Shown here piece by piece: positions 17,621-51,995 of a stretch of 64,000 nt of DNA. Source of the stretch: Pseudomonas sp. FP1742 (lineage in GTDB: Bacteria > Pseudomonadota > Gammaproteobacteria > Pseudomonadales > Pseudomonadaceae); NCBI RefSeq assembly GCF_030687145.1, contig NZ_CP117460.1:1612001-1676000 (forward strand). The letters run 5' to 3'. The notes under the pieces are model-generated. The model ran no database searches. It had not been told where the DNA came from and saw nothing but the letters and a program-made list of their open reading frames with translations. Both the position numbers and the translations under genes were made by a program. Within the stretch, counting starts at the first letter, position 1, and each line of letters begins with the position of its first letter.

Positions 17621-17813
17621 GGGTGGAGCCTCTTGTCATTGATGAGGACTCTCTGTGGTCGGGTTGCCAAATCCGGTCGCCTTTTGGGAGACCGGCGGAC
17701 TATAAGCTTCATCGTTCCAGCGGTGCAAGGTGCCTGATTCCGAGGTTGTTGTAGGGCGTTTGCCTGGCGGCAGTTGGGCAACCGGACGCGGCCTACAGAA
17801 CACCACGCAACCT

Positions 17814-40704: not shown

Positions 40705-41133
40705 CGCCCTGCAAAATCCAGCACATTGTTCAATGCGAAAGCCTTTGTTTTATGAGCTTTCGGAAGCATTAACAGGGTTTAGGAAAGTTCCATTCACTTT
40801 TCGACACAGGGCGAAGAAGTGCTGGAGGGGAGGAAGGCGAGACGGTTTAGAGGCGACATTTTTTTGTCACTCCAGTGATTCAGAACCGTTACGCATCGTT
40901 TGCAGGCGGGCTGTTTTGGAAGTGGATCCCGATGCCATTGATTGCAGAGGGTTTTATCCCGATCCCCGAACAGCCCCTCGCAAACGACACGCTTGGCAAG
41001 GGTGTCGGGAAGCAGCGGTTTACCTCAGGTAAACGCTTTCCGGCAGGCGGGCCGCCAGGCAACCTGCCTGAACCATGAGCACATTCTTCGCGCAAACAGG
41101 ATGCCGACAGCAGTTGGCAGCGGAGGAATGCAC

Positions 41134-44100
41134 ATGGCAACGCTCATCGGTATCGTCAGTAAGGTCATCGGTCAGGTGTACGCAGTGGCGGGTGATGGCA
41201 CCCGCCGCAATCTGGTCGAGGGCGATCGGCTGTTTGCCGGTGAGCAACTGGTTACCGGGGCCGAAGGCGCGGTGGCGGTTCATTTGCAAAGCGGTCAGGA
41301 GCTGACCCTGGGGCGTGACAGCAGCCTGCAAATGACCGCCCAATTACTGGCGCATCAAGTGCCGCATGTGGAAACCACCGATGCGGTGACGCCGAGTCAG
41401 GCGCAACTGACCGATGTCGAACAACTGCAAAAAGCCATTGCCGCCGGTGCCGACCCGACCCAGACCGCTGAGGCCACCGCCGCCGGGCCGGGCACAACGG
41501 GCGCGCCCGGTGGCGCCTTGGGGGGTGGCCACAGTTTTGTGCTGTTGGAGGAAGTGGGCGGGCGGGTCGACCCCACAATTGGTTTCCCCACCGCGGGCTT
41601 CAACGGCATTCCCGAATTCCCCCTGGAGCGCCGGGATGCTGCGCCGGACAACGGCAATAACGGCATCGTTACGCCGTTTGCCGCGAACGTGCCGAACAAC
41701 CCGGTTACCCTCACCGGCCTGTCGGTGGCGGGAGGTGAACTGACCCTCAATGAAGCCAACCTGGCGGACGGGTCGGCCAGCAACCCGGGGGCGCTGACTC
41801 AGCACAGCACGTTCACAGTGTCTGCGCCCGACGGGTTGACCAGCCTGAGCATCGGCGGGATCAGCGTGATCAGTGGCGGGGTGCCCATCGGTTTTCCGCA
41901 GTCGATCACCACTCAACTGGGCAACACCCTGACGATCACCGGCTACAACCCGGCCACTGGCGTGGTCAGTTACAGCTACACCCTGGTCGGCAATGAAACC
42001 CACTCCGCCGGTGACGGCACCAACAACCTCAGCGAACAGTTCACCGTAGTCGCAAGCGACCGCAACGGCGATACCGCCACCGGTTCGCTGGACGTCAATA
42101 TCACCGACGATGTGCCCAGGGCCATCGACGACAGCAACGCCCATACCGCATCGGAAACCCTGCCAACCCTGACCGGCAGCGTGCTGCCCAACGACATCCA
42201 GGGCGCCGACCGCATTGCCACCGGCCCCGACAGCGGGCCGATCATCGGCGGCACCTTCACCGGGACGTTCGGCACCTTGGTGTTGAACGCCAACGGCACC
42301 TACACCTACACCCTGAATACCAGCGACGCCGATTTCAAAGCCTTGCACGGTGGCGGCAACGGCACCGAAAATTTCGTCTACACCCTCACCGATGCCGATG
42401 GCGATACCAGCACCGCGACGCTGGTGCTGAACATCCATAACAACGACGACACGGTGACTCTCGATGGCCTGAACACCGAGGGCGGCGAGCTGACCGTCAA
42501 CGAGAAAAACCTTAGCGACGGCAGCAACCCTGATGCATCGGCCCTGACCCAAAGCGGCACGTTCACCATTACTGCGCTGGATGGCGTGCAAACCCTCAGC
42601 GTCGGCGGAATCAATGTGGTGGTTGGCGGTGTATCGGCGGGTTTCCCGCAATCAATCGTCACGCCGCTGGGCAGTACGCTGACCATTACCGGCTACGACA
42701 GCACGACCGGCGTGGTCAGCTACAGCTACACCCTGGTGGATAACGAAACCCATCCGAATGCCAACGGCGCCAACAGTCTCTCCGAACAGTTTGCGGTCAC
42801 CGTGGTGGACGACAACGGCACCACCGCCAATGGCAGCCTCGATGTGAACATCGTCGATGACTTGCCTCAGGCCGTAGATGACAGCAACGCCCATACCGCA
42901 TCGGAAACTTTGCTGACCCTGACCGGCAGCGTGCTGCCTAACGATATCCAGGGCGCCGACCGCATTGCCACCGGCCCCGACAGCGGGCCGATCATCGGCG
43001 GTACTTTCACCGGGACTTACGGCACTTTGGTGTTGAACGCCAACGGCACCTACACCTACACCCTGAACACCAGCGATGCCGATTTCAACGCCTTGCACGG
43101 TGGTGGCAACGGCACCGAGAACTTCGTCTACACCCTCACCGATGCCGATGGCGATACCAGTACCGCAACGCTGGTGCTGAACATCCATAACAACGATGAC
43201 CCGGTGACCCTCGATGGCCTGAACGTCAACGGCGGCGAACTCACCGTTTATGAAAAAAACCTCAGCGACGGCACCAGCCCCAACACCGCGGCCCTGACCC
43301 AGAGCGGCACCTTCACCGTCACCGCGCTCGATGGTTTGCAAACCCTGACCGTGGGTGGCATTGCGGTGGTCACCGATGGCGTGGCCGCAGGCTTCCCGCA
43401 ATCGATCGTCACACCGCTGGGCAGTACGCTGACCATCACCGGCTACGACAGCGCGACCGGCGTGGTCAGCTACAGCTACACCCTGGTGGATAACGAAACC
43501 CACCCGAACGCCAACGGCACCAACAGCATCACTGAGAACCTCAACGTCATCGCCACTGACGTCGACGGCAGCACGGCGTTGGGCCAGATCAACGTCAACA
43601 TCGTCGATGACTTGCCCACCGCCAACCCGGACCACGCCTCAGTGGCCGAGGGCGCGACGGTCTCGGGCAACGTGCTGGGCAACGACATCGGCGGCGCCGA
43701 CGGACCAGCCCTCGGCGGCGCGGTGGTCGGCGTGCGCGCCGGCAGCGACACCTCGACTTCGGCCATCGGTGGCTTGAACACGCAAATCAACGGCACCTAT
43801 GGCTACCTGACCCTGGATGCCAACGGCGATGCGGTCTATCACAGCAATCCAAATGCCGTGAACGGCCCTGGCGCGACCGACGTGTTCACCTACACCGTGC
43901 GTGATGCCGACGGCGATGAAAGCACCACCACCATTACCATCGACGTAGCCAACTGCACCCTCGTAGCGACCATCGATACGGATGTGACGGTTAATGAAAA
44001 AGCGCTGGATCTGACCAAGGACGGGCAGGATCTGGCGGCAGGTACCGTCATCGGCAGCGAGCCTGGCAACACCGGTGAAACCGCCTCCGGCACGCTGGTG

Positions 44101-47100
44101 GGGGCGGTCACCGGTACCAGCGACACCATCACGTACAGCCTGGTCGGCAGCGCCACCGGGACTTATGGGCAAATCCTGCTCAACCCCGACGGCAGCTACA
44201 CCTACACCCTGACCTCGCCTCCGACGACTACACCTCACGCCAACGATGGCGCGAACACCCTCAGCGAAAGTTTCACCTATCAGGCCACCGACTCCCTGGG
44301 CAACAGCGTCACCAGCACCATTGTGATCAACATCGTCGACGACGTGCCAACCGCCCACGCCGATGCCGTCTCGGTGGCGGAGGGCGGCACGGTCAGCGGG
44401 AATGTCTTGGGCAATGATGTGCTCGGTGCTGACGGCCCGGCCTTGGGTGGCGCGGTGGTTGGCGTGCGCGCCGGCAGCGACACCTCGACTTCGGCCATTG
44501 GCGGCTTGAACACGCAAATCAACGGTGCTTACGGCTATCTCACCCTGGATGCCAACGGCAACGCCTTGTACCACAGCAACCCGAATTCGGTCAGCGAACC
44601 GGGGGCCACGGATGTGTTCACTTACACCGTGCGCGATGGCGACGGCGATGAAAGCACCACGACCATCACCATCGACATCTCCAACTGTTCGCTCGTGGTG
44701 GCCCCCGATAACGACGTGACCGTTTACGAAAAAGCGTTGGATCTGACCAAGGACGGACAGGACCTGGCGGCGGGGACTGTCATCGGCAGCGAGCCTGATA
44801 ACACCGGTGAAACTGCCTCGGGCACGTTGGTCGGTTCAATCACTGGCGCCACCGGTGCAATCACTTACGCTCTGGTCGGCAGCGCCACCGGCACTTACGG
44901 GCAAATCCTGCTCAACCCGGACGGTTCCTACACCTACACCCTGACCTCGGCACCCACCACCACGCCGCACGCCAACGACGGACCGAACACCCTGAGCGAG
45001 AGTTTCACCTACCAGGCCACCGACTCTGTGGGCAACAGCGTCACCAGCACCATCGTGATCAACATTGTCGATGATGTGCCGACGGCCCATTGCGATTCGG
45101 TTTCGGTGGTGGAGGGCGCCACGGTCAGCGGCAATGTGCTGCACAACGATGTGCTCGGCGCTGACGGCCCTGCCTTGGGTGGGGCAGTGGTCGGCGTGCG
45201 TGCTGGCAGCGACACCTCGACCTCGGCCATCGGTGGCTTGAATACGCAAATCAATGGCACCTACGGCTACCTGACCCTGGATGCCAATGGCAACGCCGTG
45301 TACCACAGCAACCCGAATTCAGTCGGCGAAGCGGGCGCCACGGATGTGTTCACCTACACCGTGCGCGATGCCGACGGCGATGAAAGCACCACCACGATCA
45401 CCGTTGACGTGTCCAACAACTGCCTCGTAGCGGCCACCGATACCGATGTAACCGTCTATGAAAAGGCGTTGGATCTGACCCAGGATGGGCAGGACCTGGC
45501 GGCGGGCAGCGTCACCGGCAGCGAGCCCGGCAACACCGGTGAAACCGGCTCCGGCACGTTGGCAGGCTCGGTCACTGGCGCCACTGGCGCGATCACCTAC
45601 ACCCTGGTCGGCAGCGCCACCGGCACCTACGGGCAGATCCTGCTCAATGCCGATGGTTCCTACACGTACACCCTGACCTCGGCGCCGAAAACTTCGCCGA
45701 ACGCCAACGATGGCGCGAACACCTTGAATGAAAGCTTCACCTACAAAGCCACCGATGCGCTGGGCAACAGCACCACCGGCACCCTTGTGGTCAGCATCGT
45801 CGATGACGTGCCTCACGCCGTCGCCTCGGACCGTTCGGTGCCGGCCGTGCAGATCGACTCCAACCTGATGCTGGTGATCGATGTATCCGGCAGCATGGAC
45901 GACCCCTCCGGCGTATCGGGCCTGTCGCGGCTGGACCTGGCCAAGCAGGCGATCAGCGCGCTGCTCGACAAGTACGACAATCTGGGTGATGTGAAGGTGC
46001 AGATCGTCACCTTCAGCAGCAGCGCCACCGACCAGACGTCGATCTGGGTCGATGTGGCGACCGCCAAGTCGATCATCGCTACGCTGACGGCAGGTGGCGG
46101 CACCAACTACGACGCGGCCGTGGCGACCATGGAGAGCGCGTTCGATACCTCGGGCAAACTCACCGGGGCGCAGAACGTCGGCTACTTCTTCTCCGATGGC
46201 AAACCCAATGAAGGCGACATCGGCACCGCGGACGAGATCGCGCTCAAAGCCTTCCTCGACGCCAATGGCATCAAGAACTACGCCATCGGCCTGGGCAGCG
46301 GCGTCAATAACGCCAGCCTCGATCCGGTGGCCTATGACGGCAGCACGCACACCGACACCAACGCCGTGGTGGTGACCGACCTCAACCAACTCAACTCAGT
46401 ACTTTCGGGCACCGTGCAAGGTGCGCCGGTCACCGGTTCGCTGCTGGGCGAGGGCGGTACGTTCGGCGCTGATGGCGGGTTCATCAAAACCCTCACGGTC
46501 GACGGCACCACCTATACCTACGACCCGAAAGCCAACAGCAATCAGGGTTCGCTGAACTTCAGCGGTGGCGCCAACCACGGCACCTTCAACACCGTCGACA
46601 ACACCCTGAGCATCGCCACCAACAACAGCGGCACGCTGCTGGTGAACCTCGACACCGGCGAGTACACCTACACCTCGCAGAAAACCACGGCCGTGCAGAT
46701 CACCGAAAACATCGGCTTCACCGCCAGCGACAACGACGGCGATCTCACCAGTTCGACCCTGACAGTCAACGTGATTCCGAATTCGCCACCGGTGGCGGTC
46801 GATGATCACATCATCACCAACGTGCTGTCGGGCAGCATTGTGGTGCCGGGCGAGCTGCTATTGGCCAACGACACCGATCCCAACGGTGATGCGCTCACGG
46901 CATCGCCGACTACCTTCAACACGGGTTGGACGGCCAAGGGGGCGGACTTTACCGGCACCAATACGAGCTTCAGTTTTACCGGCAATAACGTCCAGGCCGT
47001 GACCATCGCCCGCAGTGCATTCGTCGCCAACGCTGCCGCCATGACCGCCATGCTGGTGGTCAGCGGGGCATTGGGGTCGGTCAGCACCAACAATACCAAC

Positions 47101-48273
47101 GATGAGGACCGCATCACCGTCAACCTCAAACAGGGCGAAACCCTCAACCTGGACCACAACCTGGCGGCCGGCCACATCACCATGGAGTACTCGGTCAATG
47201 GCGGCGCTTACATGGCTCTCGCCGATGGCCAGACCATCACCGCCACGGCGGACGGCACGTACCAGATCCACATCACCAACATAGACGACGGGGGACCTGG
47301 CAACAGCGGGAAGGGGGCGGAAAACTATCAACTGACCATGACCGTCAACTACGCCGGAGCCCAAGACTCCACGCCGGACTTCCACGGCACCTACACCGCC
47401 AGCGACAACCACGGCGGCAGCGACAGCGCGGCAGTCAACATCACCTACCAGGACGGCCACACCCTGACCGGCACCTCGGGCGATGACGTGTTGATCGCAG
47501 GCACCGGCAACAACGTCATCAACGCTGGCGACGGCAACGACGTGCTCACCGCAGGCTCAGGCAATAACGAGATGCATGGCGGCGCCGGCAACGATCTGCT
47601 GTTCAGCGGGCCGGGCAACGATTGGCTCGACGGCGGCACCGGCAACGACACCACCAGCTACGCCCATGCCACCGCCGGCGTCACTGTCGACCTCAGCCTG
47701 CTCACCGCGCAAAACACTGTTGGCGCAGGCACCGACACCCTGACCGGCATCGAAAACCTCACGGGCTCGAACTTCAACGACAGCCTCACGGGCGACAACA
47801 ACGGCAACATCATCAACGGCGGTCTGGGTAACGATGTGCTCAACGGCGGGGGCGGCGACGACTTCCTGATCGGCGGCCTGGGCGACAACACCCTCACTGG
47901 CGGCAGCGGTGCCGACACCTTCCAGTGGCTCAAAGGCAACAGCGGCCACGACGTCATCACCGACTTCACCCCGGGCACCGACAAACTCGACCTGTCGCAA
48001 CTGCTGCAAGGCGAGAACGGCACCGCGGCATCGCTGGATGACTACCTGCACTTCAAAGTCACCGGCAGCGGCGCGACCCTGGTCACCAGCATCGACGTCA
48101 GCGCCATGGCCGGCGCCACGCCGAACCAGACCATCGACCTGGCGGGGGTGAATTTGGCCAGTCACTACGGCGTCACGCCGGGGGCGGGTGGGGTGATTGC
48201 CGGCGGAGCGGACACTGCGACCATCATCAATGGCATGTTGAATGACCATTCGTTGAAGGTGGATACGGTGTGA
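41134..48273 (+). CDS. lapA: LapA/MapA-type giant repeat adhesin with retention module
   Basis: A 2379-residue type I secreted surface adhesin for biofilm attachment. N-terminal retention module (residues 1-100, IGIVSKVIGQVYAVAGDG then LVEGDRLFAGEQL) plugs the outer-membrane pore. TAAG at 115-118 is the expected LapG cleavage site. Then come 250-residue repeats (2.5 copies), 244-residue repeats (3 copies), a vWFA domain (about 1569-1760, MIDAS DVSGS at 1583-1587), RTX repeats (about 2110-2265, GGxGND type) and a C-terminal secretion signal. The start at 41134 has GGAGGA upstream. It is shorter than the ~5200-residue LapA of Pf0-1, so it may be the LapA or the MapA orthologue. Secretion genes are divergent; lapD and lapG lie downstream. 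Terminator at the end. Confidence 0.9.
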   Translation: MATLIGIVSKVIGQVYAVAGDGTRRNLVEGDRLFAGEQLVTGAEGAVAVHLQSGQELTLGRDSSLQMTAQLLAHQVPHVETTDAVTPSQAQLTDVEQLQKAIAAGADPTQTAEATAAGPGTTGAPGGALGGGHSFVLLEEVGGRVDPTIGFPTAGFNGIPEFPLERRDAAPDNGNNGIVTPFAANVPNNPVTLTGLSVAGGELTLNEANLADGSASNPGALTQHSTFTVSAPDGLTSLSIGGISVISGGVPIGFPQSITTQLGNTLTITGYNPATGVVSYSYTLVGNETHSAGDGTNNLSEQFTVVASDRNGDTATGSLDVNITDDVPRAIDDSNAHTASETLPTLTGSVLPNDIQGADRIATGPDSGPIIGGTFTGTFGTLVLNANGTYTYTLNTSDADFKALHGGGNGTENFVYTLTDADGDTSTATLVLNIHNNDDTVTLDGLNTEGGELTVNEKNLSDGSNPDASALTQSGTFTITALDGVQTLSVGGINVVVGGVSAGFPQSIVTPLGSTLTITGYDSTTGVVSYSYTLVDNETHPNANGANSLSEQFAVTVVDDNGTTANGSLDVNIVDDLPQAVDDSNAHTASETLLTLTGSVLPNDIQGADRIATGPDSGPIIGGTFTGTYGTLVLNANGTYTYTLNTSDADFNALHGGGNGTENFVYTLTDADGDTSTATLVLNIHNNDDPVTLDGLNVNGGELTVYEKNLSDGTSPNTAALTQSGTFTVTALDGLQTLTVGGIAVVTDGVAAGFPQSIVTPLGSTLTITGYDSATGVVSYSYTLVDNETHPNANGTNSITENLNVIATDVDGSTALGQINVNIVDDLPTANPDHASVAEGATVSGNVLGNDIGGADGPALGGAVVGVRAGSDTSTSAIGGLNTQINGTYGYLTLDANGDAVYHSNPNAVNGPGATDVFTYTVRDADGDESTTTITIDVANCTLVATIDTDVTVNEKALDLTKDGQDLAAGTVIGSEPGNTGETASGTLVGAVTGTSDTITYSLVGSATGTYGQILLNPDGSYTYTLTSPPTTTPHANDGANTLSESFTYQATDSLGNSVTSTIVINIVDDVPTAHADAVSVAEGGTVSGNVLGNDVLGADGPALGGAVVGVRAGSDTSTSAIGGLNTQINGAYGYLTLDANGNALYHSNPNSVSEPGATDVFTYTVRDGDGDESTTTITIDISNCSLVVAPDNDVTVYEKALDLTKDGQDLAAGTVIGSEPDNTGETASGTLVGSITGATGAITYALVGSATGTYGQILLNPDGSYTYTLTSAPTTTPHANDGPNTLSESFTYQATDSVGNSVTSTIVINIVDDVPTAHCDSVSVVEGATVSGNVLHNDVLGADGPALGGAVVGVRAGSDTSTSAIGGLNTQINGTYGYLTLDANGNAVYHSNPNSVGEAGATDVFTYTVRDADGDESTTTITVDVSNNCLVAATDTDVTVYEKALDLTQDGQDLAAGSVTGSEPGNTGETGSGTLAGSVTGATGAITYTLVGSATGTYGQILLNADGSYTYTLTSAPKTSPNANDGANTLNESFTYKATDALGNSTTGTLVVSIVDDVPHAVASDRSVPAVQIDSNLMLVIDVSGSMDDPSGVSGLSRLDLAKQAISALLDKYDNLGDVKVQIVTFSSSATDQTSIWVDVATAKSIIATLTAGGGTNYDAAVATMESAFDTSGKLTGAQNVGYFFSDGKPNEGDIGTADEIALKAFLDANGIKNYAIGLGSGVNNASLDPVAYDGSTHTDTNAVVVTDLNQLNSVLSGTVQGAPVTGSLLGEGGTFGADGGFIKTLTVDGTTYTYDPKANSNQGSLNFSGGANHGTFNTVDNTLSIATNNSGTLLVNLDTGEYTYTSQKTTAVQITENIGFTASDNDGDLTSSTLTVNVIPNSPPVAVDDHIITNVLSGSIVVPGELLLANDTDPNGDALTASPTTFNTGWTAKGADFTGTNTSFSFTGNNVQAVTIARSAFVANAAAMTAMLVVSGALGSVSTNNTNDEDRITVNLKQGETLNLDHNLAAGHITMEYSVNGGAYMALADGQTITATADGTYQIHITNIDDGGPGNSGKGAENYQLTMTVNYAGAQDSTPDFHGTYTASDNHGGSDSAAVNITYQDGHTLTGTSGDDVLIAGTGNNVINAGDGNDVLTAGSGNNEMHGGAGNDLLFSGPGNDWLDGGTGNDTTSYAHATAGVTVDLSLLTAQNTVGAGTDTLTGIENLTGSNFNDSLTGDNNGNIINGGLGNDVLNGGGGDDFLIGGLGDNTLTGGSGADTFQWLKGNSGHDVITDFTPGTDKLDLSQLLQGENGTAASLDDYLHFKVTGSGATLVTSIDVSAMAGATPNQTIDLAGVNLASHYGVTPGAGGVIAGGADTATIINGMLNDHSLKVDTV
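41703..43620 (+). repeat. Adhesin repeat family A, 750-base period, 2.5 copies
   Basis: Landmarks recur 750 bases apart: GTGCTGCC(C/T)AACGA at 42181 and 42931; GTGAC(T/C)CTCGATGGCCTGAAC at 42453 and 43203; the first unit begins near 41703. Each 250-residue unit is a pair of VCBS/cadherin-like beta domains ending in aspartate-rich linkers (VDDLP, HNNDD). The copies are nearly identical over long stretches. Confidence 0.9.
43624..45820 (+). repeat. Adhesin repeat family B, 732-base period, 3 copies
   Basis: GT(C)(A/T)(G/C)CGG(G/C)AA landmarks at 43660, 44392 and 45124 are each 732 bases apart (244 codons). The units share SAIGGLNTQING, GYLTLDANG and YTVRDADGDESTTTIT, and differ from family A. 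The small divergence between copies suggests recent amplification or gene conversion. Confidence 0.9.
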
Positions 48274-48515: not shown

Positions 48516-48884
48516 TCATAGGGCCGGGTCGGCCTTCAGCTCCAGGCTATCCAGCGCCCGACTCACCGCCAGCTCCCCGAACATGATGAGCTGCGCGACG
48601 CCCAGTATCGTATTGCGCTGCGGCCCCTCCAGAAACCCGGCGCAGTCACTGGCGATCACCTTGGCCGAGGCAAAGGATTCGCAGGCGTTGGCCAGCAGTT
48701 CTTCGATGTTGATGTCCGGGGCGACGGTGTAAATCGTGCTCGGTTTGCGCGGGGGCTTGGGGTCGGACGGTTTGAGGTAGTAATCGAGGGCGCGCTCGGC
48801 GGCTTCGTTGAGTTTTTTGGAGTCCGGGGTTTCGTAGGGGGAAACGTCGTCGGTTTCAGGGGGATTGGGTGTGGCTTTGAACAT
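48516..48884 (-). CDS. DUF6124 family protein
   Basis: A 122-residue cytoplasmic protein. The opening MFKATPNPPETDDVSPYETP, SKKLNEAAERALDYYL and the C-terminal half (ELLANACESFASAKVIASDC, LGVAQLIMFGELAVSRALD) are the DUF6124 pattern, a family restricted to pseudomonads and of unknown function; the C-terminal helices resemble DUF3077. The start is supported by AAGGAG 7 bases upstream. Its 5' leader is unusual: a terminator-like hairpin about 150 bases upstream and a hairpin loop complementary to the ribosome-binding site, so expression is probably under RNA control. Confidence 0.85.
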   Translation of the reverse strand: MFKATPNPPETDDVSPYETPDSKKLNEAAERALDYYLKPSDPKPPRKPSTIYTVAPDINIEELLANACESFASAKVIASDCAGFLEGPQRNTILGVAQLIMFGELAVSRALDSLELKADPAL

Positions 48885-48990
48885 TGTGATGCTCCTTGAT
48901 TAGTGGAGCCGCCACGGTTCGCTGCGAAACGAAGGGAGGTGGCAGCTGTACGCAGGTTCGCAGACCGGGAATCAAGGAACCCGGCAGACC
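48885..48990 (-). promoter_or_regulatory. Leader hairpin whose loop is complementary to the DUF6124 ribosome-binding site
   Basis: On the minus strand CCGGG (48984-48980) and CCCGG (48969-48965) form a stem presenting the 10-base loop TTCCTTGATT (48979-48970). The ribosome-binding region AATCAAGGAG (48901-48892) pairs with the whole loop: nine Watson-Crick pairs and one G-U. Pairing would form a pseudoknot and hide the AAGGAG. About 70 bases separate the partners, and another hairpin (GCCAC / GTGGC) fills the space. Confidence 0.55.
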
Positions 48991-49035
48991 CTAAGATCTC
49001 CCGCGCACAGCCGCCATAACGCCATCCAGTAGACG

Positions 49036-49068
49036 AAAAAAGCGCCAACTGAAAGGGAACGGTGGCGC
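49036..49068 (-). terminator. Minus-strand terminator/attenuator upstream of the DUF6124 gene
   Basis: Read on the minus strand: GCGCCA (49068-49063), 15-base loop, TGGCGC (49047-49042), then six T. It lies 258 bases after the 889-residue gene and 152 bases before the DUF6124 start, so it either ends that transcript, attenuates DUF6124 or ends a small RNA. Confidence 0.6.
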
Positions 49069-49206
49069 AATGCGCCTTGATTGACCCGGGCTGCGAAACC
49101 CGATCGCTGATTCGTCAGCGACCCGGAAACAATAGAGCCCGCCCCCAAAAGCACACAAGCCGGCGGATTCTGGCGCAGTCGTAGGCAACGGCGCAAGGAT
49201 GTGTAG

Positions 49207-49262
49207 CCTGAGTGAGTGTCTGGAGATGTCTTTTAAACATCACTGTTTATTTCTCACTCAGG
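49207..49262. repeat. Perfect 10-bp inverted repeat with inner stem
   Basis: CCTGAGTGAG (49207-49216) and CTCACTCAGG (49253-49262) are exact inverses 36 bases apart; inside, GATGT / ACATC form a second stem around TTTTAA. It is part of the 441-base gene-free stretch 48885-49325, which also holds the terminator and leader listed separately. Confidence 0.65.
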
Positions 49263-49325: not shown

Positions 49326-51995
49326 TTATTTACGACGCATGTTGAAGTAATCGAAAGCTATTAAATCCATTATGGGTGTCGTGATTTCTATGCCCCAGAT
49401 GTAATTGTTGTAGGGGGTGGAGTATGTAACGAACTGCGCGTTGAAGTTGTTGGAAAGATACATGTGATTGAGCGTGTTGCCTGCTTTATCTAGGAAGTAA
49501 ACCGAGATGTTGTTGTGTTGGGCGAATCGGCACCAGAAACTGACATAGGAATAGCCCCAGTTGAATCTGATACGCATATGTTGCGCCGTGCCGCTAGCCT
49601 GCCAATGCATCTCCAGAATCTGCCCATAACATTGACCCGGCAATTGAGGGTAAGGGCCAGTCACGACATTTGCTAACGGTGTTATTCCCAAATACCCGTT
49701 CCCCGCCGGAAAAGTAATGGTCATGCTGTCTAGTGAGATACTTCCGCCGGGTGCTATGACTTGTGTAGGGCGGTGATCGAAGTTTTCCGACAATATCGGC
49801 TGTTTATTCCTGATGACATATTTTATGGACGTTGGGAATGTGATCGTTATGGGCTTTTGCCCCTTGACGTTGGCTTTGACTTCTACATGGAGGGTTGAAC
49901 CATCCTGCAGCAGTAACAGTTGCGCACGTGACAGTGTTCTGGTGAATCCATTTATCTCTTCCTCAAGTGTCAAGGAACCTTCTGTCACTACGGGAATAAC
50001 AAGGGGGCTTCCATTGTTTCCGGTTCCTATGACCTTTATGTCGATAAGATAATTTCCACCCCGAAGCGGCCATGAAGTTTTAGTGATGGTGGTATCACCG
50101 TCGAATTCATTGATATCCAAGGTCCGCGCACTATCAGCCTGATCGATGATGGGAGCTCCCAATCGAACATCACCGTCGACAATCGGCTTAATTTTCAGCG
50201 CCAGGGGTAACGATTCCCCAACTGATTTTCCGTCGCGAATCAACGTCCAATACAATTTTATTTCGCTATTCATGCGGGCCAAAAGAAATTCGGAGCTGAG
50301 TTTTAAATTGGCCCGTTTGTTGTCATTGATTCGCTGCTCAGAAAAGGGTTCGTCACCCGGCAGGGGACTCGCGTCTATAAATTGCGCTTTATCATTTGTC
50401 TTGGCAGTCGGATATTCGATTCGAACGGTAATTCCGTTCGGTACTTCCAGTAAATCGATGACCATGGTAGCCGGCGGTACGGGGAATGGCGGCCGCAATT
50501 CTTCAATCGCTTCCTCTCCAAACATTAACTGAAGTAGTTCCGAAAAGACCTCCATCTCCCCCGGATTTTTTATTGTGCATTGCACCGTCAAAGGCGTATC
50601 GGCATAAGGGGCGATGTACTTGTCTGACACCTCAAATATGATTGGCTGTGTCGGATCCTCGATAATGAGTTTGAAAATGAACAGGGCCTTGATCCCGTCT
50701 TTATCGGTAGTTTGCCAGTGAAGGGTAACGTTGGCGCCCTTTTTCAACGGCCAATAGTCAGCAACTTTTACCCTGGCCCTGCCAGTGTCGACCGGTAGTT
50801 TGTCGTCTACCAGCGGCTCAACTATAGCCAGACCCAGAGGCAAGGACTTGCCCCTGAAAGTGGCGTCGGCGGGTTTCGAAAGCTGGGTGTTGCCCCCTTT
50901 GGTCAATGTGTAGGACGCCCGTGCCGATCCCCTGATGAGATTACGTACCCACTCGTTTAGAACAGGGATTTTCACAGATCTGGTCGCGGCAGTCAGCGTC
51001 ACACGGAACGTGTGGCTGGCGGGATCGCCACCACTGGTGAGCGCTTCCAGGGTCAGTGCGATCTCATCATCTTGTGCAAATACACCGGTGACCAGTATCA
51101 CCATGGGATCGCCCATGAGCAGATCGTGATCTACCACATTGTCGGGATCGGCCTGTTCGAAAATCGGTGCGGTCAGCAGCACTATCCCGGGCTTGAAAAC
51201 CAGGATCAGCGAATCCGACCAGCCGCTCGAATTCTCCACGACATCGAACACCTCCCAGCGTACGATCACCGTAGAGGTGAGCGGCAGCTTGGCGAGCATT
51301 TCAGGTGTCAATTCAAAGATCACGTCACCCAACGCAGTGACGGTGGACTCAAGGAGCAGCGATCCAAAGGCAAGTACGACCACATCACCGATTCTCTGGT
51401 TGTAATACGCCAGCACGGTCACGAACATGCCTTCATCGACCACGGTTTTATCAATGACGGATTCCGAAGCAACGGGCAGCTTGAGGCCCTGGTTGAAGGG
51501 TTTACCGCCGTCTGTGTCCGGTTCACCCGGTGCCGGGTGTTTATAAAACAGCGGCACAGGTGTCGATTGTTCGGTGCCGTTTCCACTCACGCGCTTAACG
51601 TCGAACCAGAATTGCTTGTTCTCCGATAGCAGCGGCGCAAACCTGGCTTCCATGTCTTTGGCGGAAATATAGAAAGGAATGTTTTTCGCGTTGCCTTCGG
51701 CATCGAAGTGGGCTTCGGTGACGGAAAATTCAGCGACGGGAGCGTTTTTTGTTTCGATGTAAACCGTGATGTAGTCGCCGATGGCCATGTTCAGATAGGC
51801 CAGGATGTAAACCAGCAAACCGTCTCGGTCGCCGTGCACCATGTTGATGTTGATCCCCAGGGCACCGTCTTTCTGTGGCTTGTAGCCTGGCGGGAAGGGC
51901 GGCTCTACGGCCAGCAAGCCGATGCCGCGATCGGGCGGGAATACAACGACTTGTCCATTGGAGGCGAGGTCAGCGTTTGTCAGGGGGCTGTTCAT
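49326..51995 (-). CDS. 889-residue leaderless beta-rich protein, unknown function
   Basis: A large protein with no signal peptide and no transmembrane segment. Residues about 30-740 form several Ig-like beta modules of about 150-170 residues, each with the same theme (DYITVYIETKN, GDVVVLAFGSL, DEIALTLEALT, ANVTLHWQTTD, NGITVRIEYP). The last ~140 residues differ (from SENFDHRPTQVIAPGGSISL) and look like a jelly-roll/carbohydrate-binding tip (MRIRFNWGYSYVSFWCRFAQ). Similar multi-module hypothetical proteins are frequent in the P. fluorescens group. A good ribosome-binding site (AAGGAAGG) precedes the ATG. It sits between the adhesin and lapD, but its codon use and AT-richer text differ from the lap genes, so it may be an insertion. 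Confidence 0.7.
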   Translation of the reverse strand: MNSPLTNADLASNGQVVVFPPDRGIGLLAVEPPFPPGYKPQKDGALGININMVHGDRDGLLVYILAYLNMAIGDYITVYIETKNAPVAEFSVTEAHFDAEGNAKNIPFYISAKDMEARFAPLLSENKQFWFDVKRVSGNGTEQSTPVPLFYKHPAPGEPDTDGGKPFNQGLKLPVASESVIDKTVVDEGMFVTVLAYYNQRIGDVVVLAFGSLLLESTVTALGDVIFELTPEMLAKLPLTSTVIVRWEVFDVVENSSGWSDSLILVFKPGIVLLTAPIFEQADPDNVVDHDLLMGDPMVILVTGVFAQDDEIALTLEALTSGGDPASHTFRVTLTAATRSVKIPVLNEWVRNLIRGSARASYTLTKGGNTQLSKPADATFRGKSLPLGLAIVEPLVDDKLPVDTGRARVKVADYWPLKKGANVTLHWQTTDKDGIKALFIFKLIIEDPTQPIIFEVSDKYIAPYADTPLTVQCTIKNPGEMEVFSELLQLMFGEEAIEELRPPFPVPPATMVIDLLEVPNGITVRIEYPTAKTNDKAQFIDASPLPGDEPFSEQRINDNKRANLKLSSEFLLARMNSEIKLYWTLIRDGKSVGESLPLALKIKPIVDGDVRLGAPIIDQADSARTLDINEFDGDTTITKTSWPLRGGNYLIDIKVIGTGNNGSPLVIPVVTEGSLTLEEEINGFTRTLSRAQLLLLQDGSTLHVEVKANVKGQKPITITFPTSIKYVIRNKQPILSENFDHRPTQVIAPGGSISLDSMTITFPAGNGYLGITPLANVVTGPYPQLPGQCYGQILEMHWQASGTAQHMRIRFNWGYSYVSFWCRFAQHNNISVYFLDKAGNTLNHMYLSNNFNAQFVTYSTPYNNYIWGIEITTPIMDLIAFDYFNMRRK

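Follow-up and report, generated by a model that had tools for sequence, protein, structure and literature searches.

The minus strand of the window (the 64,000-nucleotide stretch of the Pseudomonas sp. FP1742 genome analysed here) carries a structured leader in front of a gene for a 122 aa protein of the DUF6124 family (48516..48884; PF19619, 74.2 bits against a cut-off of 27), and the question raised by this locus is what kind of RNA the leader is and how it might act on the gene that follows. An earlier note had taken it for a cis-acting switch, consisting of a pseudoknot and an attenuator, and for a member of a new regulatory RNA class.

Identity and layout of the leader

The stem-loop on which that proposal rested was confirmed: the stem CCGGG/CCCGG spans 48984-48965 and presents the loop TTCCTTGATT at 48979-48970, all ten bases of which pair (one G-U) with AATCAAGGAG at 48901-48892. 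This partner, separated from the loop by 68 bases, is the DUF6124 ribosome-binding site. When the 50-nt leader was dinucleotide-shuffled, pairing over all 10 nt turned up in 41 of 20,000 trials; with the loop shuffled instead, in 20 of 20,000. Chance pairing in a single copy is unlikely but not impossible, and we hold the contact to be settled because of the covariation across copies described below rather than these shuffles. The leader matched two Rfam covariance models: C4 antisense RNA (RF01695) over its full length (1-87) at 48935..49021, with 82.2 bits against a gathering threshold of 45, and upstream of it c4-a1b1 (RF03163) at 49083..49135, with 54.7 bits against 46.7. These matches rule out a new RNA class, and the leader instead belongs to an established RNA family whose role on the chromosome has been strongly expanded.

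The elements follow the order a1, b1, C4, a2, b2/ribosome-binding site, gene, as they do in phage P1, whose record annotates a1, b1, C4 (77 nt), a2, b2 and icd. A first leader hairpin (TCGCTGA-CGAA-TCAGCGA, 49104..49121), recognised in the sequence, in the folds and as the first stem of the RF03163 model, is followed by a second (49102-49087) whose loop holds a1 (TTCGCAG, 49091..49097), and then by b1 (AATCAAGG, 49075..49082). The mature C4, its ends placed by analogy with the P1 RNA, is predicted to comprise 78 nt (49015-48938) and to adopt the three-stem C4 fold (-46.8 kcal/mol, z -5.64), with agreement between minimum-energy and centroid structures. In this fold the a' segment CTGCGAA (48957..48963) lies between stem 3 and stem 1; it is perfectly complementary both to a1 and to a2 (TTCGCAG, 48922..48928), which sits in a small hairpin (48933-48918) directly 3′ of C4. 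The loop described above (48970..48979) is b', and it complements b1 as well as b2 (48892..48901), so that a' and b' together match a2 and b2 at the ribosome-binding site and a1 and b1 upstream. Sequence signs of the kind associated with excision recur in the C4 set of this genome: of the 34 copies, 30 have ATGG close to the 5′ end and 28 have CCACC close to the 3′ end.

The likeness to the immI operon of P1 and P7 (c4-icd-ant) thus lies in the family score, the three-stem fold, and the order and spacing of the elements: from the start of a1b1 to the start of C4 there are 114 nucleotides in the window and 120 in P1, and from the end of the C4 model to the start codon 50 nt and 47 nt. The differences are that the window genome has 34 chromosomal copies, and that C4 is followed here by DUF6124, with no antirepressor in this copy, where immI has icd and the antirepressor ant. 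Kinship of DUF6124 with P1 Icd was rejected, hhalign giving a probability of 0.2 percent.

We infer a promoter at 49158-49129, directly before a1b1. The candidate site (TTGTGT, 18 nt, TATTGT; 49129..49158, minus strand) is placed as the annotated P1c4 promoter of phage P1 is placed relative to a1b1; a consensus promoter scan returned none at these positions. Across the 31 paralogues with a1b1 the -10-like columns read T in 26, A in 31 and last T in 26, and the best spacer was 17 in 22 copies and 18 in eight, a distribution biased by choosing the -35 as the best among several spacers. By eye, many paralogues in the same genome also have a longer common stretch upstream, GCCTACG...CGCCAGAATCCGCCGGCTTGTG, seen for example at window positions 49155-49225 (minus strand); the promoter and its upstream sequence look as if they had been duplicated together with the cassette.

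Two further features of the earlier description are present in the sequence and do not belong to the conserved system. The terminator-like hairpin (49036..49068) is formed by GCGCCA (49068-49063) and TGGCGC (49047-49042), with six T running to 49036, and it competes with GGCGCATTGCGCC (49076-49064). A run of at least five T within 60 nt before C4 occurs in just 5 of 34 paralogues, which rules out a conserved attenuator and makes the terminator optional. Together with a1b1 this hairpin matches the two hairpins and terminator-like hairpin of IsrK from the Salmonella Gifsy-1 prophage (RF01394). The isrK model, though, scored 37.7 bits in the window and 35.1 bits in P1, below its gathering threshold of 50, and this, with the scarcity of the T-run, sets the window leader apart from that family. 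The perfect 10-bp inverted repeat (49262-49253 and 49216-49207) lies upstream of the inferred promoter; perfect repeats of at least 10 within 150 nt upstream were found in 3 of 34 paralogues and 2 of 170 shuffles, so a conserved inverted repeat is ruled out. The repeat itself (49207-49262, minus strand) folds strongly (z -5.73) between the promoter and a gene of 889 aa, and is possibly the 3′ end of that gene's transcript, though it lacks a T-run. The 889-aa open reading frame (49326-51995, minus strand) had no Pfam or PHROG match, and its last 300 aa have a close relative in one other of 119 Pseudomonas genomes and weaker ones in 47 more.

Covariation of loops and targets

The earlier note had asked for a check of covariation between loop and ribosome-binding site, and the two co-vary strongly across cassettes. 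Three collections were compared: the 34 C4 RNAs of the window genome, 60 cassettes from the genus, which are not a random sample because they are the best-scoring C4 of each genome, and cassettes at the orthologous site of the window copy. Since the 889-aa gene gave one relative with a close match (74 percent), that route to orthologues was dropped and the conserved adhesin reading frame on the other side of the cassette (40942-48273) was used as the anchor. The adhesin was found in 138 of 249 genomes; among the 30 best matches examined, which include the window genome, 15 had a C4 over gathering beside it.

In the window genome, cognate b'-b2 duplexes had a mean energy of -13.85 kcal/mol against -8.13 kcal/mol for non-cognate pairs, and none of 20,000 permutations was as low; these matrices include the C4 copies at 4181804 and 2114157, both without an assigned gene. 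The a'-a2, b'-b1 and a'-a1 pairings likewise beat all permutations in the 34 own and 60 genus cassettes. At the orthologous site a'-a2 was weaker (41 of 10,000 permutations as good), and the other three pairings beat all permutations.

To avoid circularity, a second test took as its only anchors the loop CC and the Shine-Dalgarno GGA, and counted pairing at the five flanking positions. It took in 85 of 109 cassettes, leaving out 24 without the anchor or an assigned gene; locus L133 was also set aside, its adhesin lying outside the top 30. Cognate combinations paired at 4.32 of the five positions on average and non-cognate combinations at 2.24; the highest value among 20,000 permutations was 2.75. 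Pairing was complete in 58 of the 85 and mismatched in 27, and the individual positions paired in 75, 73, 75, 78 and 66 cassettes. All four Watson-Crick pairs are present at the third to fifth positions; for the first and second positions the pairs listed are T-A, A-T and G-C, without C-G. For the 13 of 15 orthologous-site cassettes that could be anchored, the means were 4.00 and 2.19 (permutation maximum 3.85), with six fully paired.

The result was reproduced in two further genomes of the genus, each represented by its 30 best-scoring C4, of 42 matches in one and of 36 in the other. One gave 3.32 against 2.29 (19 of 30 cassettes anchored), near the permutation maximum of 3.26, and the other 4.04 against 2.01 (23 of 30); in neither did any of 20,000 permutations score as high. 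The cognate a2+b2 target was the top match for 19 of 34 RNAs in the window genome, and for 19 of 30 and 24 of 30 in the two replicate genomes. The b1 and a1 targets were less specific, ranking first for 7 and 9 of 34. The specificity of C4 is therefore substantial but partial. Selection for private codes was considered and rejected, as collisions within genomes (5/496, 2/406 and 12/351) were not clearly rarer than between them (12/928, 23/864 and 9/783).

The orthologous-site cassettes carry several different codes, mostly matching their own gene; in one copy (L175) the DUF6124 gene goes out of frame and the code is mismatched. When, conversely, 84,980 species genomes were searched with nothing but the target code of the window, 33 loci came back, all from Pseudomonas except one, which lies in a Corynebacterium MAG. 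At all 32 Pseudomonas loci CCTTGATT was found in the loop of an upstream C4, in 26 as TTCCTTGATT and in six with TACC or TGCC, and the adhesin was present in the flank examined (up to 8 kb) at 2 of the 33. One code is thus found at several sites, with different DUF6124 proteins.

The cassette family in the genome and the genus

In the window genome (6,669,235 bases in one contig) 34 C4 RNAs exceed the threshold, and an a1b1 match precedes 31 of these; DUF6124 has 30 matches, of which 26 are near full length. The recurrence of the leader that the earlier note had predicted was borne out in this genome: 22 of the 26 near-full-length DUF6124 genes and all three full-length DUF3077 genes sit downstream of a C4. 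The other four near-full-length DUF6124 genes have no C4 upstream, two of them having an a1b1-like leader and two neither. A short open reading frame precedes DUF3077 in two of its three full-length cases, as icd precedes ant in P1. By local HMM or phmmer assignment, the genes that follow the 34 C4 RNAs are 22 DUF6124, one DUF3077, one Bro-N antirepressor-like gene, six members of three small families (3, 2 and 1) with no Pfam match over cut-off, one member of a family of about 52 aa, and three unassigned.

C4 was matched at E 0.001 in 110 of 119 sampled Pseudomonas genomes, 109 over the cut-off, and DUF6124 in 95 of 119, with up to 43 matches in a single genome. Counts of the two were correlated across these genomes (Spearman 0.886, with C4 counted among the matches listed, at most 33 per genome), and none of the 119 had DUF6124 without C4. 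Eleven had at least 10 C4 and at most three DUF6124, which indicates that C4 serves other genes too. Full searches of two of the 119 yielded 41 and 35 C4 over threshold. Across the phylum C4 was present in 62 of 398 genomes, among the matches listed (at most 10 per genome).

Among the 60 genus cassettes (L072-L131) the commonest gene after C4 encodes the family of about 52 aa (MHALNPSKIRAAAHRAMALAALHANSSL...; 21 of 60), whose member in the window genome had no Pfam match; the rest comprise 18 DUF6124, seven Bro-N, six DUF3077, four of another family and four unassigned. The Bro-N antirepressor-like genes stand behind C4 at L080, L082-L084, L086, L087 and L090, and in the window genome behind the copy at G000:C1:6415346-6415433 (plus strand, 38.8 bits). 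These copies are perhaps a link to the phage ancestor.

At 17656-17705 (minus strand) the window has a second a1b1-like leader, which scores 28.9 bits, short of the gathering threshold, and has no C4 match; a small gene starting MDRYMPLTGIDLIPATLLIDTQAPLDVL follows it directly. Three other a1b1 matches in the genome, at 614084, 876921 and 879026, are also without C4. Such leaders may be orphan targets. Control in trans by the 34 C4 RNAs was considered for six C4-less genes (four with an a1b1-like leader and two with neither) and set aside, as their best matches fell within the range of non-cognate pairs.

Mode of action and possible roles

We consider it likely, from the sequence and its comparison across copies, that the leader transcript is cleaved to release C4, which then represses the DUF6124 gene of its cassette at the level of translation. 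Transcription from the promoter directly before a1b1 would give a single RNA carrying a1, b1, C4, a2, b2 and the DUF6124 gene, from which C4, once folded into its predicted three stems, would be excised, most probably by RNase P, as in P1, where C4 blocks translation and is cut by that enzyme (PMC5320573). The a' segment would then pair with a2, and b' with b2, at the ribosome-binding site of the DUF6124 mRNA, a pairing supported by the covariation, and translation would thereby be blocked. The many different a'/b' codes among the copies suggest that the main target of each C4 is the gene in its own cassette, and that cross-talk occurs to some extent. Synthesis of DUF6124 protein would require C4 to be scarce relative to the mRNA, and a1 and b1 may catch C4 or favour early termination. 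More tentatively still, a phage immunity RNA may have been turned by pseudomonads into a genome-wide set of self-silencing small-protein genes with diverse antisense codes (34, 35 and 41 over-threshold copies in three genomes). Such a set would amount to a dispersed repertoire of effectors, each gene being freed once the C4 that belongs to it is lost or titrated, for instance under stress or phage attack.

In type I toxin-antitoxin systems an antisense RNA holds down the translation of a small protein. The C4 cassette would share this arrangement, with the difference that C4 runs in the same direction as its target and would be cut from the target's own leader. It is possible, if rather doubtful, that DUF6124 acts as a harmful protein or a dormancy protein, which an unstable C4 keeps in check until transcription stops, as under phage attack; such a role for the protein is compatible with excision and repression by C4. 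An antisense RNA adjoining a small protein gene in many dispersed copies would be expected of such a guard, and P1 Icd, encoded at the equivalent place, inhibits cell division (PMC8198154). Against it, the DUF6124 protein appears soluble (pI 4.5, GRAVY -0.27), has no PADLOC match and is unlike Icd. The gene of the window had no PHROG or NCBIfam match either, and comparison with solved structures gave a single match, at E 0.94.

The switch in cis proposed earlier, in which the C4 fold is kept in the mRNA and its loop forms a pseudoknot or kissing contact with its own ribosome-binding site, perhaps in response to a signal, is retained in part: a structured RNA that pairs with the ribosome-binding site stands, while the attenuator is not conserved and excision as an antisense RNA is the likelier alternative to the pseudoknot. 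Loop and site do lie on one transcript, a short distance apart, and co-vary, and covariation by itself cannot separate cis from trans. The b2 site is moreover placed by the fold of the window copy inside a small hairpin, and GCTCC...GGAG recurs in 11 of the 34 cassettes of the window genome, 11 of the 15 at the orthologous site and 33 of the 60 from the genus, so that the contact of C4 with b2 may be loop to loop. A single contact in cis, on the other hand, needs no covariation of the loop with b1, nor of a' with a1 and a2, and it is because b' and a' match these additional sites, as annotated in P1, that we think the switch in cis improbable; the C4 of P1, too, is described in PMC5320573 as an excised RNA that acts on targets.

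Two readings seem much less credible. That the C4 RNAs chiefly work in trans against phages, incoming or resident, by targeting their antirepressor mRNAs, with DUF6124 secondary, would follow the superimmunity role of C4 in P1 and P7, an idea also raised for Acinetobacter baumannii in PMC5320573, and would fit the Bro-N antirepressor-like genes that come after C4 in 1 of the 34 own cassettes and 7 of the 60 genus ones. It is very improbable: the a2+b2 code of the window, the one code searched, had no exact match in viral contigs. Carriage of DUF6124 by phages or plasmids was rejected: 72,556 plasmid records gave no match, and 50,697 phage records gave one, at a record edge; DUF3077 had no match in phage records. 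Least credible of all is a decaying prophage relic without present function, for although C4 is best known from phages, and L175 and the two own C4 without an assigned gene would fit decay, most copies across the genus have kept up compensatory change, and DUF6124 genes remain intact and have multiplied.

A comparable system is that of A. baumannii AB5075, whose Group 1 C4-like sRNAs, in the available text of PMC5320573, form a likewise large chromosomal set of 21 RNAs with the C4 fold and a variable a' loop, apparently processed at a GGW site. That text does not identify their target genes; the Pseudomonas copies, in contrast, mostly precede a gene with a matching ribosome-binding site. It cites PMC2864571 for C4 in Pseudomonadales, and both C4 and c4-a1b1 are listed in that paper. 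The literature searched, which excluded supplementary files and most subscription papers, showed no visible link of C4 to DUF6124 or DUF3077, although one may exist elsewhere; it left DUF6124 unnamed and named DUF3077 once. What is new here, within that literature, is the chromosomal set of C4 RNAs before DUF6124 genes.

The association provides a handle on the DUF6124 and DUF3077 families, points to possible targets of chromosomal C4 RNAs, which the available part of PMC5320573 leaves open for Acinetobacter, and offers about a hundred natural loop/target pairs for tests of antisense specificity. If our reading is true, DUF6124 and DUF3077 genes would normally be silenced by the linked C4, and ordinary knock-out screens could therefore miss them.

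Two C4-less loci of the window genome adjoin other RNA features. At L067 (G000:C1:2287500-2290000) a DUF6124/DUF3077-like gene (2288432-2288617, minus strand) adjoins a PrrF RNA on the same strand (160.4 bits). At L071 (G000:C1:5250774-5250902) several microRNA-family matches below gathering fall in one stretch directly 3′ of a DUF6124 gene, and probably mark a long imperfect inverted repeat.
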